NCBI GenBank assembly: GCA_013141505.1
Contig: JABFQX010000006.1
Span: forward strand, 153,300 to 217,299
Source: Methyloglobulus sp.
GTDB taxonomy: Bacteria; Pseudomonadota; Gammaproteobacteria; Methylococcales; Methylomonadaceae
DNA length: 64,000 nucleotides
Reading direction: 5' to 3'
Shown: in pieces, positions 32,148 to 38,831 of the stretch
Layout: each line of letters begins with the position of its first letter
Numbering within the stretch: position 1 is the first letter of the stretch
Made by a program: the position numbers and the translations under genes
Notes under the pieces: generated by a model
What the model was told of the DNA's origin: nothing
What the model saw: the letters and a program-made list of their open reading frames with translations, nothing else
Database searches by the model: none

Positions 32148-34499
32148 TCAACAGCTAGACTTGTTTTGTACTCGCAACCACCAGCCTTCATGCGTACCTT
32201 GATACGGATCAATACCTTGCCAACACTCAAATAACCACTGACCGAAGCGCACACACGACGGCAAACCAGTGTCGTCACGCTCAATCACATCGTACTGACA
32301 TTGCGCGAAATACATATGGCCTACCGATTGATGCACGTCGTAAGCCCAATGGGGACGTTTTTCATCAATCAATTCATACCACGGGCAAGAATAAGCAGTT
32401 GGCGGAGGACTTGGTAAAGGCTCTTTTCCAGAACGTAACCGCCAGAATAGCCTGCTCTTCGCGATGTCTATATCACTTGGTAACCAACTGCCCTTGTAGT
32501 AACGCGTTTGTCTGGCAGTTTGAATCCATTTTGTCATCGCTATACAGATAAACAAATCTCGCTCTGTCAAAATTATAATCGGCGGGTTGTAGCCAAAGAA
32601 TTCCTCCAGATATTCTAAAAGGCGTTCTTCATCTGAAAGCATCCGTTGAAACAGTTTACTCTTGGCGATTTGTTTTCTAGTTGGCAACCAATCTTCGCCG
32701 CAACGCTTCCGTAAAACCTCAATCCATTCAACGAGTACGACACAAATTAACCTATCGCGACTAGTCAATATCGGTGGGCCGTGGTCTGCGTAACCTCGCC
32801 CTTCCACTGAATTACCGATTTCTTCATCATTTGGCTTGAATACCTTGGCCAATTTACTGTGCTTATTGCTATAGAAGACATAAATCAACAAGCCGATAAG
32901 CAGCCATAATGCAAACAACTTCCACTTTTCCAACTCAATACCGGTCAATAAATAACAACATGACAACAAGCCTAATACCGGAATCAAGGAAAAATTCTTG
33001 ATATATGACGCGACATTTAAGCCAACTAACACACTAAAAAAAACCAGTAATTGAATGTCGATATTATTGTTAACCCAATTTTTTAGATAATTACCCAACA
33101 AATCCGGCTTGGCATAGACGATGGTATTTAAAGCAGTTAACGTTATGAGCGGCAAGATATACTTGGCATTGACGTAAGGTAGACGGAAGTGTTTGCCGTC
33201 ATTGCGTGGAACTTTACCGTATTGCTGTGTAGGCAAAGTTAAAACGCCCGCACAAACCAAGATGAAGGCGAATAAGGTACCGATGCTGGTCAAATCCAGG
33301 ACGAATTTTTCATCAGTAAATAGCAACAATAGTGTGACCACGCCGCCGGTCAACACCGTTGAAAATCCCGGTGTTTTATAATTAGGGTGGAGTGCGCCGA
33401 ATTTAGCGGGTAACAAGCCATCATTGCTCATCGCCATCCATATTCTGGGTTGCCCCATTTGGAACACCAGCAATACACTGGTCATTGCCACGACTGCCGC
33501 GACCGAAATAAACAACGCTATCCATTTAACCCCTCTGAGTTGAAATGCTTCGGCGACAGGGTCATTAACGCCCAGATACTGATACGACACCACCCCGGTC
33601 AGCACCAAAGCCAACACAATATAAAGTACAGTACAAATGATCAGTGAATAAATCATCCCCCTAGGCAAATCCCGTTGCGGATTTTTGCATTCTCCGGCCA
33701 GCGTGGAAACCGCATCAAAGCCGATATAGGCAAAAAATACTGCCGACACACCGCCCATCACCCCGCTAAAACCGTTGGGCATAAACGGTGTCCAGTTATC
33801 GATATCAATGTAAAAAATACCCACCGCTATCACCAATACCACGACAAGCAATTTCAATATCACCAGGAAGTTGCTTATATTTTTAGCTTCCTTTACGCCT
33901 CTGTACACTAAAGTGGTGATGACTAAATTGGCGGTAATGGCAGGTGAATCCATAATAAACCTCAAATTTCCCAATTGTGGCGCAGTTTCCCATGCTAACT
34001 TACCTTCGCTTTTTAGCTGGGCTATCGCTTGCGCGTGAGCAGACGTGTAATTTATGGTTAACCACGCGGGTAAATGCCAACCCGCACTGTCCAGCAGATT
34101 GGTGAAATAGCCGCTCCAGGAAAACGCAACAAATACATTACTGACTGAATATTCAGTCAACAACGCCCAGCCGATAATCCAGGCGAAAAACTCCCCAAAC
34201 GCCACGTAAGCGTAGGTATAAGCGCTGCCTGAAACCGGCACCTGTACGGCAAATTCGGCATAACACATCGCGGTAAAACCACAGGCCACCGCGCAAAATA
34301 GATACAGGAACACCACGCCCGGCCCACCGCTAAAACAGGCATTACCAATGGCGCTGAAAATACCGCTGCCGATGATGGCGGCAATGCCGAATAGCGTCAG
34401 GTCACGCACTGATAATATCTGGTGCATATCGCCATTGTTGCCGCCATTTTGTTGTAAATCGTGCAGAGATTTTTTGCGGAATAAATAATTAATACTCAT
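32148..34499 (-). CDS. APC-family amino-acid permease with a duplicated C-terminal domain
   Basis: The first 545 residues are an amino-acid/polyamine/organocation transporter of the cationic amino-acid type: LTLFGIAAIIGSGIFSAIGNA is the substrate loop of helix 1, followed by about 12-14 membrane segments. A cytoplasmic extension of about 235 residues follows (32148-32858), not usual in this family. It contains two clearly related units, at 32619-32780 and 32409-32588, sharing the pattern LT-x-RD-x(2)-IC, WI, WLP and IAKS-x-LF, and then a Trp- and Cys-rich tail. The ATG at 34499 is chosen over a TTG three codons earlier. It stands alone, with secreted protein genes on both sides. The substrate is unknown, and the extension could be regulatory (inference). 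Confidence 0.85.
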   Translation of the reverse strand: MSINYLFRKKSLHDLQQNGGNNGDMHQILSVRDLTLFGIAAIIGSGIFSAIGNACFSGGPGVVFLYLFCAVACGFTAMCYAEFAVQVPVSGSAYTYAYVAFGEFFAWIIGWALLTEYSVSNVFVAFSWSGYFTNLLDSAGWHLPAWLTINYTSAHAQAIAQLKSEGKLAWETAPQLGNLRFIMDSPAITANLVITTLVYRGVKEAKNISNFLVILKLLVVVLVIAVGIFYIDIDNWTPFMPNGFSGVMGGVSAVFFAYIGFDAVSTLAGECKNPQRDLPRGMIYSLIICTVLYIVLALVLTGVVSYQYLGVNDPVAEAFQLRGVKWIALFISVAAVVAMTSVLLVFQMGQPRIWMAMSNDGLLPAKFGALHPNYKTPGFSTVLTGGVVTLLLLFTDEKFVLDLTSIGTLFAFILVCAGVLTLPTQQYGKVPRNDGKHFRLPYVNAKYILPLITLTALNTIVYAKPDLLGNYLKNWVNNNIDIQLLVFFSVLVGLNVASYIKNFSLIPVLGLLSCCYLLTGIELEKWKLFALWLLIGLLIYVFYSNKHSKLAKVFKPNDEEIGNSVEGRGYADHGPPILTSRDRLICVVLVEWIEVLRKRCGEDWLPTRKQIAKSKLFQRMLSDEERLLEYLEEFFGYNPPIIILTERDLFICIAMTKWIQTARQTRYYKGSWLPSDIDIAKSRLFWRLRSGKEPLPSPPPTAYSCPWYELIDEKRPHWAYDVHQSVGHMYFAQCQYDVIERDDTGLPSCVRFGQWLFECWQGIDPYQGTHEGWWLRVQNKSSC

Positions 34500-34576
34500 G
34501 GCTGCCAATAAGACCGATTAGTGATATGCCGAAGCCCATAAAAAACTCCGGCATATTTTTAAGTGCTCTTTTTATC

Positions 34577-35239
34577 TTAAAGCTTTGGAAAGTATTTCCA
34601 TTGCTGCTGCAGATACCCGCTGCGCGGCCATTGCATCAAGCGGATACCATCCACTTTAACGCCATGTGCGGTCGCAACAGTCATGCACATCGTACTGTAA
34701 ACATTGCAATACCGGTAATAACCGCCCCCTGTCGATTCCCTAGTCCATAAGGTATCGTTATGTGCCGGATTACAACTGCCAACAAAAAGACTGGAACTAG
34801 GCTGACGGTCTCTAACCCGGATACAGAGATTTTTCTCATAGTTGCGTAGCTGGAGCGTACCTGGCGTTTTAACTACGTGTTCCCAATACTGGGTGGACAT
34901 GTTAAAACAAGTCGATTGATATACCGGATCATACATAATAATGGCATTCCAGTATGGCGTGTCCGCACACTTTCCGGAAGCTCTGTTCACCAACCAGCCG
35001 ACGGTAGAACGCGGCTCAGCCGATACACTCGCGGAAATTGCAAACATTCCCACGACGAGACCCCCGATTAATACACCACGAGTAGCGAATAGGGATTTCC
35101 CTATTTTTTTCATTTGCTTTTGCTGCGTTTTCATATCGATTACCCCGGATTCACTTATTGGAAAGCCTTTAGCCGCCAGAGCTGCTTCTAAGCTATTAAT
35201 GCTTATTTTGTCAACATCGTTGCAATGTAGGATACTCAT
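34577..35239 (-). CDS. Secreted ricin-B-lectin-like protein
   Basis: A 220-residue protein whose mature part resembles a ricin-type beta-trefoil: GWLVNRASGKCADTP, QYWEHVV, LQLRNYEKNLCIRVRD, TLWTRE and a QQQWKYF ending of QxW type, with six cysteines. Such domains bind sugars, but only about 145 residues are present and the match is by eye. A hydrophobic signal-like segment is at residues 55-74 (cleavage near SVSA). The start is uncertain: the ATG at 35239 has a strong AGGA site but gives a very long pre-sequence; ATG 35134 gives a more normal signal peptide with a weaker site. Confidence 0.65.
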   Translation of the reverse strand: MSILHCNDVDKISINSLEAALAAKGFPISESGVIDMKTQQKQMKKIGKSLFATRGVLIGGLVVGMFAISASVSAEPRSTVGWLVNRASGKCADTPYWNAIIMYDPVYQSTCFNMSTQYWEHVVKTPGTLQLRNYEKNLCIRVRDRQPSSSLFVGSCNPAHNDTLWTRESTGGGYYRYCNVYSTMCMTVATAHGVKVDGIRLMQWPRSGYLQQQWKYFPKL

Positions 35240-35516: not shown

Positions 35517-35927
35517 TCAATAACAGGTCTGTATGCCAAGCGGTAGGTTTGTCTTTGTATTTAGGAAATGGTCGGGCATGTAGCCATACCACAATGTGCC
35601 GTGCATTTTAACAACCGCACCATCCCAAATTCTTGATCCTGCAATGGGATAACCCTTGGTATTTTGGCAAAGAATACATACAAAATCCCCTTGGGGCACA
35701 GTAATGCGCCCTAGATGCTTAATACCGGTCGCATTGTTTGTCACATCATATGCCCCACGTATGTTATGCGCTGTATCAGTGCGAAAATCAAGCCCCGTCT
35801 TGGTATGTATTACGGCAGCTGGAATTCCGGCTGTACAAATCGAGCCTGCATGTACAAACTGTGAAACGCTTGTAACAGCCAATAATGCCATTGCATAAAT
35901 TAAAGATGTTAAGGTAAGTTTTTTCAT
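35517..35927 (-). CDS. Small secreted protein of unknown function (SH3-like candidate)
   Basis: A 136-residue protein with a signal peptide (MKKLTLTSLIYAMALLAVTSVSQFVHA). The ATG at 35927 has GGAGAAAG upstream; a start five codons earlier is less likely. The mature part is about 110 residues, beta-rich, with FRTDTAHNIRGAYD, GDFVCILCQNTKGYP and WDGAVVKMHGTLWYGYMPDHFL. The spacing of glycines and the final WYGYMPDHFL resemble bacterial SH3-like cell-wall binding domains, but I cannot confirm it. Four cysteines suggest disulphides. It is divergent from the sensor gene at 36201. Confidence 0.6.
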   Translation of the reverse strand: MKKLTLTSLIYAMALLAVTSVSQFVHAGSICTAGIPAAVIHTKTGLDFRTDTAHNIRGAYDVTNNATGIKHLGRITVPQGDFVCILCQNTKGYPIAGSRIWDGAVVKMHGTLWYGYMPDHFLNTKTNLPLGIQTCY

Positions 35928-36048
35928 TTTCTTTCTCCACATAGTTAGAAAATATCCACAGCGGAATGCTGTGGATGAATCAAGAATATCATAGAGTAAA
36001 AAATTGTAACTGTTTGATATATAATATATATTACTATTAGTCGCTATG

Positions 36049-36085
36049 GGTTACTGGTAGTTACTGTAAGTAACTATTGGTATTT
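36049..36085. promoter_or_regulatory. Candidate operator: palindrome in the divergent gap
   Basis: TAGTTACT (36058-36065) and AGTAACTA (36069-36076) form a perfect 8-bp inverted repeat with a 3-base spacer. A further GGTTACTGG half-site precedes it and ACTATTGG follows. It lies about 125 bp before the SBP-domain membrane protein gene. A TATAAT sequence (36020-36025) is close by. A dimeric regulator binding here is inference. Confidence 0.5.
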
Positions 36086-36200
36086 ATTTGAAGGCATTTC
36101 TATGCCGATTGGCATCGACATAAGGGTAAAATGCTAGGAAATTCCCTTTAAATATTTAGTAGTTGTAGTCAAGTTTTCTACAAAGAAATGAGGAACAACC

Positions 36201-38288
36201 ATGGCAAAATTTATCAGAGATCAATGGGACGTATTTATAAGTTTAAACAGATATCATGGAATTGATAGTTTTGCGGCGGCGAGCAATCGCTTGGCCGAAT
36301 TAATGCCGAAAAAACCTAATGAAGCAACTATAAGAGCCTGGGTTACAAAATCGGCAATTCTAAAGGAAGACGGAAAGCATTTTGCACAAGCATTCAGGCT
36401 AGACCCAGATCAATTTAAGGAAATATTAGAAGCAACCCGCTTTAGAGACGGAAACGACTTGGCTTGTGATTCCGGGACGCTTAAAGCTACGCTCAAACAG
36501 GAATACCAGAAAATTCTTAAAATTTATCTCTGGCAGCTTGATGTGCTTATTGATGAAGGTAATTTGATTCATGGCATCACAGATAAGTACGAGTTGAATA
36601 AGCGATTGAGAATACCTATAGCAGAAGGGCTTTCGGAACCGCCATGGACTGAAGAAGAGATTAACTGGCCGGAGGAAATTCAGTTTAGCAACTTAGCTAG
36701 TGAACTGAGCTTTGAATCAGAAGCCTATCTAGCACACATTCTGTGGGAAATTCATCGTGAAAAATTTATTGAAAAAGCTCAGCGTTATTACGCAGATCAG
36801 AGTATAAAAAAAGGGTTGAACATAATAAATAAACCAGATGTCATCCAGCACGAAGGAAGTGAACAAGACATAAAGACGGAAGCCTCTACTGGCAAGGAAG
36901 AAAACACAAATATTCCCGATGGTGACGTAGATATAAACACTCTAAACCCCATTGAGACAACCCCTCAGATAGATGAGGGTGTAAAACCCACGGAAAAAGG
37001 TTGGCCCACCTTAAAAAATCCATTGGGGAAAGAGGCAGTTTGGGCGGCAATAACCGCTATTCTTCTGTGCTTGTTAATAATTATCTATTTACGACACCCC
37101 GCCCCCATTCCAAAGCCAGAGCTAGTGCCGCTGCCAAAACCACCCATTGCTAAGGAAACAATGCCGCAAGTGCGTCCGGTCAGCCCCAACATGACTGACA
37201 TAACTGGAACCGATTTAGTTACGATTACTTGGGTAGATGATAAGCCTTCAGCCGATGTCCAATACGTGCTTGAATTGATTTACACCCCAACTGGCAAAAA
37301 TAACCCACAGACAGAATACAAAGATCTTAAGGAAATATCTCGCCAAGGTAATATTTTTTCAACACAGGTGGGGATTCATAAAAGCGGCGCATATAAATGG
37401 ATGGTTAGGCGCAAATCAGAATACAACTCTAATTCTGAAAACACAGAACCATTTTCCTTGAAATTCAATTACTGGGAAAACTATTTGGCTAAAATAATAG
37501 CACGCAAAGTATTGAAGATTGCTGTCGTCGTATCCGAACAGGATCGCTTCATCAACAAGCAAAATAATCAATTCGTCGGTTACGATACCGAGGTAATCGA
37601 TTTCATCAAATCAAGGCTTGATGGCGTTGAGGTCAGATACACCGATACTACTTGGCCGGAATTCCTGAAAATCATGGAAAACGGCGACGTGGATGCCGCC
37701 ATTTCATCCATGACTAATCTGACTTCGCGCATTAAAGACAAAAATGTGGACTTTACCAGCTATTATTTCCATCCACACCAAGCATTTTTCGAGCTTAATA
37801 GCGGTTCTGCCAGCAAAAATCCTCTACAAATCATGGAGCGACTCAAAAATGCCGAAGTCGGCGTGGTAGAAGGGTCGTCCAATAAAATGCTGGCAGAATA
37901 TCTGCTTAAGGCAGACAACAACCCTCAATATGATTTTGTCATTAAATCCGGTTATGAAAATATTACCAGCTTGAGTACTGCACTGAAAAATAAGAAAATT
38001 GATTTCATGCTGACCGATTGCGAACTCGTACAACCATCGGGTAATCTCAGGGTTGCGCTGGTTGTGTCAGAAAGACATAAACAGCAGTACGTTCGCGAAC
38101 AATTATTTAGCGTCTCCAAAGGTGAACCCAGAGAAGAATATATAATAGTTACCCAAACCGATGGCACACATAGCTTAAGCAATAAAATTGCCGATATCCT
38201 GCAAAGCCAAAAGGGCGTAGCAAAACTTAAAGAATTGTCAGATAAGATTTATGCAGAAACCCCGGATTGCCAAGCCAGCAATAACTGA
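36201..38288 (+). CDS. Single-pass membrane protein with a periplasmic SBP_bac_3-type domain
   Basis: A 695-residue protein. Residues 1-278 are hydrophilic and presumably cytoplasmic; helices around 22-80 (SFAAASNRLAELMPKKPNEATIRAW) look like a possible DNA- or protein-binding fold, but no family is recognised. A single membrane segment is at 279-298, then a Pro-rich linker (299-325), a beta-sandwich or Fn3-like stretch (about 330-425) and a solute-binding domain of SBP_bac_3 type (about 437-685: LKIAVVVSEQDRFI, VGYDTEVIDFIKSRL, GDVDAAISSMTNLTSR, IGV-type VGVVEGSSNKMLAEYLL). There is no kinase, GGDEF or MCP domain. The topology recalls ToxR/CadC-type one-component sensors. A good AGGAACAACC site precedes the ATG. 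Confidence 0.8.
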   Translation: MAKFIRDQWDVFISLNRYHGIDSFAAASNRLAELMPKKPNEATIRAWVTKSAILKEDGKHFAQAFRLDPDQFKEILEATRFRDGNDLACDSGTLKATLKQEYQKILKIYLWQLDVLIDEGNLIHGITDKYELNKRLRIPIAEGLSEPPWTEEEINWPEEIQFSNLASELSFESEAYLAHILWEIHREKFIEKAQRYYADQSIKKGLNIINKPDVIQHEGSEQDIKTEASTGKEENTNIPDGDVDINTLNPIETTPQIDEGVKPTEKGWPTLKNPLGKEAVWAAITAILLCLLIIIYLRHPAPIPKPELVPLPKPPIAKETMPQVRPVSPNMTDITGTDLVTITWVDDKPSADVQYVLELIYTPTGKNNPQTEYKDLKEISRQGNIFSTQVGIHKSGAYKWMVRRKSEYNSNSENTEPFSLKFNYWENYLAKIIARKVLKIAVVVSEQDRFINKQNNQFVGYDTEVIDFIKSRLDGVEVRYTDTTWPEFLKIMENGDVDAAISSMTNLTSRIKDKNVDFTSYYFHPHQAFFELNSGSASKNPLQIMERLKNAEVGVVEGSSNKMLAEYLLKADNNPQYDFVIKSGYENITSLSTALKNKKIDFMLTDCELVQPSGNLRVALVVSERHKQQYVREQLFSVSKGEPREEYIIVTQTDGTHSLSNKIADILQSQKGVAKLKELSDKIYAETPDCQASNN

Positions 38289-38526
38289 ACGACTGCCTTG
38301 CCGTTTTTACCGGATATGCGAGTTGTTTTAATGTGTCACCGGTTTAGCGAAAAGATTCAAATGTGCACAATAACTTGTATAAACCAATCCAATTATCGCT
38401 TATAGGCTGTTCCTTTAGATGAAAGTTGTCTTAAGCAAGCTGAATTGACGTGGTTGCGGCGCTTTAGAAAACTAATGATTATCAGTTGGTCGCGGTGTCT
38501 GATGCCGGATATTACGCTTAAAAATA

Positions 38527-38754
38527 GCGGTCAGTAATCAATGACAATCTCAAAAAACAACCTGAATATCCTGATAAACTAAGGCTTGGCGATAACTTGA
38601 ATTTATCCATAAGAGGGTTAACGGCCATACGTACTTTCACGGGTTGCCGAGCAAAATTAATGGGTTATCATTTTGCTATGAACGATAATGAGAAACCAAC
38701 TTATACCAATCCCAATAAGTTCTCATTGTTCCTTGCTCCCAAGGGAGAAGGTTA
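38527..38754 (+). pseudogene. Startless open frame, possible gene remnant
   Basis: A frame of about 75 codons without a start runs from after a TAG near 38524 to a TAG at 38752-38754 and reads as plausible protein (NLKKQPEYPDKLRLGDNL, IRGLTAIRTFTGCRAKLMGY). It may be the end of a decayed gene; I do not recognise a family. The 543-bp gap 38289-38831 otherwise holds a short GGTTAGGGTGAGGGG sequence of the kind scattered in many proteobacterial intergenic regions (around 38749-38764). Confidence 0.3.
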
Positions 38755-38831
38755 GGGTGAGGGGATTTATTTAAAAAAATTTTTTAGCATTACTGTAATG
38801 CTGATAATAATGTTGGGGGCTAAATAGCAAA

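Follow-up and report, generated by a model that had tools for sequence, protein, structure and literature searches.

The window (the whole analysed stretch of 64,000 nucleotides from a Methyloglobulus sp. contig) carries an open reading frame for a protein that we call the sensor, whose parts and surroundings are collected in Table 1. The frame is not a chance one, as its codon usage resembles that of the window's housekeeping genes, and a pseudogene or chance reading can be eliminated from the 695 intact codons, the normal codon use and the significant domain match; this is a real gene, with a good ribosome-binding site ahead of its ATG. The only Pfam family found in the product is SBP_bac_3, a solute-binding domain. 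The preliminary description had given the order as a cytoplasmic helical region, one membrane segment, an Fn3-like stretch and an SBP_bac_3-type domain, and hydropathy taken with Pfam and PDB searches bears this order out. Within it, the placement of the SBP relative to the membrane segment is clear, the Fn3-like label is plausible at a borderline score, and the N-terminal helices are present in a prediction of low confidence.

Table 1. Features of the sensor gene, its surroundings and its relative P0002 (window positions unless a locus is named)
Feature	Position	Strand	Basis or remark
Sensor open reading frame, 695 aa	36201..38288	+	ATG start; codon use as in the window's housekeeping genes
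GAGGA, Shine-Dalgarno-like	36190..36194	+	5' of the ATG at 36201; from sequence
Orphan domain, residues 1-208, putative output	36201..36824	+	predicted helical and cytoplasmic; no family, PDB or genome match
Acidic linker, probably disordered, residues 209-278	36825..37034	+	15 D/E vs 7 K/R; model helix-free, pLDDT ~30
Only transmembrane segment, residues 279-297	37035..37091	+	hydropathy; model helix 277-298
Proline-rich linker, residues 301-335	37101..37205	+	sequence
Fn3-like stretch, residues 336-425	37206..37475	+	pattern and position as in P0002
SBP_bac_3 domain, residues 437-686	37509..38258	+	predicted periplasmic; amino-acid-binding branch; Pfam, NCBIfam TIGR01096, PDB AncQR
R510 codon, in MTNLTSR (MT-x4-R)	37728..37730	+	motif position in P0001 and P0002; invariant in alignment A1
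D606 codon, in IDFMLTD	38016..38018	+	aligns with TD of AncQR; invariant in alignment A1
Imperfect palindrome, 14-bp arms: TACTGGTAGTTACT GTA AGTAACTATTGGTA	36052..36082	+	inverted-repeat search; candidate operator or hairpin
Small protein, signal-peptide-like start	35517-35942	-	between permease and sensor; divergent from the sensor
Ricin-type lectin, secreted	34577-35239	-	between permease and sensor
APC-type permease	32148-34508	-	APC-family secondary transporter
P0002 gene	L006 1093-2586		adjoins panB

The hydropathy profile of the 695-aa sensor contains a single hydrophobic segment (Kyte-Doolittle mean 2.76), preceded by 278 residues. A signal peptide is absent, the first 40 residues peaking at only 0.3. 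Taken with the extracytoplasmic nature of the SBP family, this profile suggests that the sensor is probably a type II membrane protein with its N-terminus in the cytoplasm and its C-terminal SBP in the periplasm.

The SBP_bac_3 match (PF00497, residues 450-682) has an E-value of 9.4e-13 and scores 48.5 bits against a gathering score of 26.4. NCBIfam TIGR01096 also matches (E 2.9e-13, under that model's cut-off), and the PDB matches of the sensor are amino-acid-binding proteins, the best being AncQR (E 3e-8). In amino-acid-binding SBPs such as LAOBP and GlnBP, the ligand carboxylate is bound by an Arg following a strand with the motif MT-x4, and the amine by an Asp close to the second hinge. 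We take R510 to be the counterpart of the carboxylate-binding Arg and D606 that of the amino-group-binding Asp. The equivalence of R510 depends on the MT-x4-R spacing because the HMMER alignment has a two-residue gap around it. As both residues are kept, the cleft looks usable, and the ligand would be an amino acid or an amino-acid-like compound; at the level of sequence, then, the domain has the ligand cleft on which the preliminary description had made its reading depend. The host encodes three further SBP_bac_3 proteins, namely an SBP-PAS-GGDEF sensor (L043), one of lytic-transglycosylase type, and a stand-alone SBP.

Searched against whole genomes, residues 300-695 returned one relative, the protein P0002 of a distant proteobacterium (locus L006/L007, E 5e-8), which is 26% identical to the sensor and retains both R510 and D606 as well as an insertion after the Arg. 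P0002 begins with ∼50 residues that are followed by a TM segment, a coil-like stretch, an Fn3-like pattern and the SBP, and is thus almost devoid of a cytoplasmic part. The SBP parts of the two proteins are clearly related (z 17.3), whereas their Fn3-like parts give a borderline score (z 1.6, with 157/2000 shuffles equally good) and agree in position and pattern (VT-x2-W ... LELI ... W); the stretch at ∼336-425 has no significant Pfam match. Because P0002 keeps the TM, Fn3-like and SBP order with so few residues before the membrane, the outer half is a reusable module, and one that can occur without a clear output, since P0002 has no sizable cytoplasmic domain. A profile built from the pair finds elsewhere only more SBP-domain matches; the match examined that Pfam could name is of the lytic-transglycosylase type (SBP + SLT).

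Upstream of the sensor, the permease, the lectin and the small protein all lie on the opposite strand. It had been proposed that the sensor and the permease form a module for amino acid sensing and uptake. We rejected this proposal for want of linkage: the permease is on the other strand with two genes between, its homologues occur in relatives that have no sensor, and the P0002 gene is flanked by an alpha-amylase-type gene and panB. The permease itself has a C-terminal soluble tail (residues ∼560-786) with a tandem repeat of ∼50 residues (ILT.RD..IC....WI...R ... WLP....IAKS.LF.R, z 20), a tail that is seemingly missing from the relatives' homologues (open frames of 471-487 aa). Downstream, the ∼540 bases between the sensor and TauE (38289-38831) hold no convincing open reading frame.

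The neighborhood also bears on whether the sensor signals at all. It could instead be a membrane-tethered binding protein that scavenges its ligand or passes it to a transporter, the N-terminus serving as an anchor or scaffold, and P0002, which has the same outer half and hardly any cytoplasmic part, fits this. Nevertheless, no ABC-transporter gene, for permease or ATPase, is found near the sensor, the adjoining permease is of the APC family, and a folded-looking cytoplasmic region of 208 residues would be a costly anchor, so we regard this explanation as unlikely. To our knowledge, APC-family secondary transporters normally operate without an SBP.

The region before the membrane segment (residues 1-278) has zero matches in Pfam, NCBIfam, PHROGs, PADLOC and the PDB. 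In agreement with the earlier reading, searches of Pfam, NCBIfam, PADLOC and PHROGs place no kinase, GGDEF or MCP domain in this N-terminal part. AF2, run without an alignment, gave two poor models (pLDDT 36 and 51.5), in which helices are predicted with low confidence at residues 2-19, 24-34, 41-51, 55-64, 69-78 and 91-118; the best local part, residues 23-80, resembles a small helical bundle, again at low confidence. A Foldseek search of the PDB with the better model gave nothing at E<=0.001, and comparisons of the N-terminus with the neighboring proteins, and of one half with the other, gave nothing convincing (best z 2.6). The structure prediction thus returned helices, tentatively, and lent no support to a DNA-binding fold. 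The preliminary description had taken all 278 residues for an unknown output; residues 1-208 are the putative output domain, while residues 209-278 look like a disordered linker. With no signal peptide and with disorder apparent in that linker, the region as a whole looks neither secreted nor mainly disordered.

Could the N-terminus bind DNA? A regulator of the ToxR/CadC (TTR) kind would carry a diverged HTH in residues 1-85, bind DNA, perhaps at the upstream palindrome, and be controlled by the periplasmic SBP. Residues 2-78 contain five short predicted helices, for which the model's local confidence is highest (pLDDT 54-67 from residue 21 on), the palindrome occupies the divergent promoter region, and single-pass TTRs are common (PMC10269533). 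The palindrome lies within the 258-bp intergenic region common to the sensor and the divergent small-protein gene, and its core occurs once in the window where 0 copies are expected. That divergent neighbor, which has no family match, is with its palindrome a better candidate for a regulatory target than the permease. However, no HTH family matches the N-terminus at E<=10, a threshold at which HMMER filters hide very weak matches, no wHTH or OmpR-type domain is found, and the significant Foldseek matches include no HTH fold. XRE/YdaS profiles perform on this region at the level of shuffled sequence, with 469-527/2000 shuffles as good. An HTH had also been read by eye from residues 20-85, with ATIRAWV as the recognition helix and LDPDQF as an XRE-like tail, and was dropped as unproven after the profile test. 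Because that test stayed at shuffle level and Foldseek gave nothing at E<=0.001, DNA binding is a possibility without support, and we consider a regulator of this kind improbable.

To place the gene among genomes, we searched whole-genome samples of the host's family (151), order (311), class (369) and phylum (252), which overlap. No homologue of the N-terminus was found outside the host in these samples, nor in genome and viral contigs scanned with peptide patterns, nor in plasmids and phages by tblastn. A second genome scan, from a two-row alignment, found nothing with patterns that were poorly chosen, and a 16.7-bit match in one genome of the order (E 0.004), confined to the TM region at residues 273-352, was taken as chance. 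Within all searched sets there is thus one full-length sensor sequence. The gene is absent from the other genomes of the genus, where TauE, cca and yajQ, which lie downstream of the sensor, stay together and the stretch upstream of TauE has no homologue of sensor, permease or lectin; since the relatives keep this group without a sensor, the gene is accessory. P0002 was likewise not found in 77 other genomes of its order.

Such sporadic occurrence, with the sensor in no other sampled genome and P0002 equally isolated, might be expected if the sensor were the membrane part of a system for conflict or cell death, with its helical N-terminus acting as an adaptor or effector-associated domain and its TM-SBP part as a variable sensor. 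In the caspase-TM-PBP proteins of the conflict "System 4", a TM segment and an extracellular PBP indeed form the variable C-terminal part (PMC7159879), and the sensor resembles these proteins of Kaur et al. in having its TM segment followed by such a domain. It nevertheless has no match to an EAD, caspase, STAND or PADLOC family, neither do the scanned neighbors, and cyclase and EACC1 domains are also absent from both; we rate this explanation as very unlikely.

Several known systems share part of this layout. MSMEG_1200, which is conserved in Mycobacterium and Streptomyces, joins a Ser/Thr kinase and a C-terminal SBP in one chain, and 260 further SBP kinases have been listed (PMC6069109). The NCBIfam StpK7 model matches residues 440-522 of the sensor at profile positions 366-445 of 601, its C-terminal part. 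Like StpK7/MSMEG_1200, the sensor has an N-terminal cytoplasmic part and a C-terminal SBP_bac_3-type domain in one polypeptide; unlike them, it has no Pkinase match in Pfam or NCBIfam and carries the orphan helical domain instead. In the GlnH-GlnX-PknG system of Mycobacterium and Corynebacterium an amino-acid-type SBP also senses across the membrane (PMC6069109, PMC9769921), but there the SBP, the TM protein and the kinase are distinct polypeptides. SBP_bac_3 is also the periplasmic sensor in BvgS-family kinases, RmcA and CdgH; they place it before the TM segment, however, with a histidine kinase or c-di-GMP domain as output, which is the kind of layout seen in the host's SBP-PAS-GGDEF protein, and the sensor, having neither the SBP ahead of its TM segment nor a histidine kinase, is not of the BvgS type. 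With ToxR/CadC it shares, in its predicted topology, a cytoplasmic N-terminus, one TM segment and a C-terminal periplasmic sensor, and differs in having no DNA-binding domain detectable with Pfam families (wHTH/OmpR type included) or the XRE/YdaS profile test. As such a domain was looked for and not found, we do not class the sensor with ToxR/CadC. Nor is ToxR/CadC the nearest layout, as had been suggested, because kinase/SBP single chains (PMC6069109) and caspase-TM-PBP proteins (PMC7159879) are already described. The layout of the sensor has precedents, and its novelty is that it has no known output domain.

On balance we favor, as reasonably probable, a single-pass type II receptor of the inner membrane for an amino-acid-like ligand, which would signal through its TM segment to a cytoplasmic output domain at residues 1-208. 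The periplasmic SBP, spaced from the membrane by the proline-rich linker and the Fn3-like spacer, would close around an amino acid or similar ligand, and the single membrane helix would relay this closure to residues 1-208, probably within a dimer. The output would then consist in the helical domain binding to a second molecule, for which a protein partner is the most likely candidate and DNA a less likely one; binding is proposed because the domain contains no recognizable catalytic domain. The receptor model builds on the open reading frame, the single TM segment, the missing signal peptide, the SBP with its anchor residues, the lack of a known enzymatic output and the order seen in P0002, and from these we infer topology, ligand, dimerization, signaling and the nature of the output. 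Against it count the layout of P0002 with its tiny cytoplasmic part, the low confidence of the structure models, the absence of a conserved partner gene, and the absence of any homologue of the N-terminal domain, whose signaling role is putative. More tentatively, residues 1-208 may be a new output domain, converting periplasmic amino acid binding into a cytoplasmic protein or DNA interaction without phosphorylation or a second messenger, which we hold to be possible and rather doubtful.

As a single copy of the sensor is known, its importance is unproven. SBP domains commonly serve as amino acid sensors, and the outputs known for them comprise kinases, cyclases, phosphodiesterases and chemoreceptors. 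If the receptor reading is true, an SBP beyond a single TM segment, coupled to an output outside these classes, would represent a new kind of output for a known sensor, and the protein would offer a compact system in which to study how a single helix passes on the closure of the domain around its ligand.
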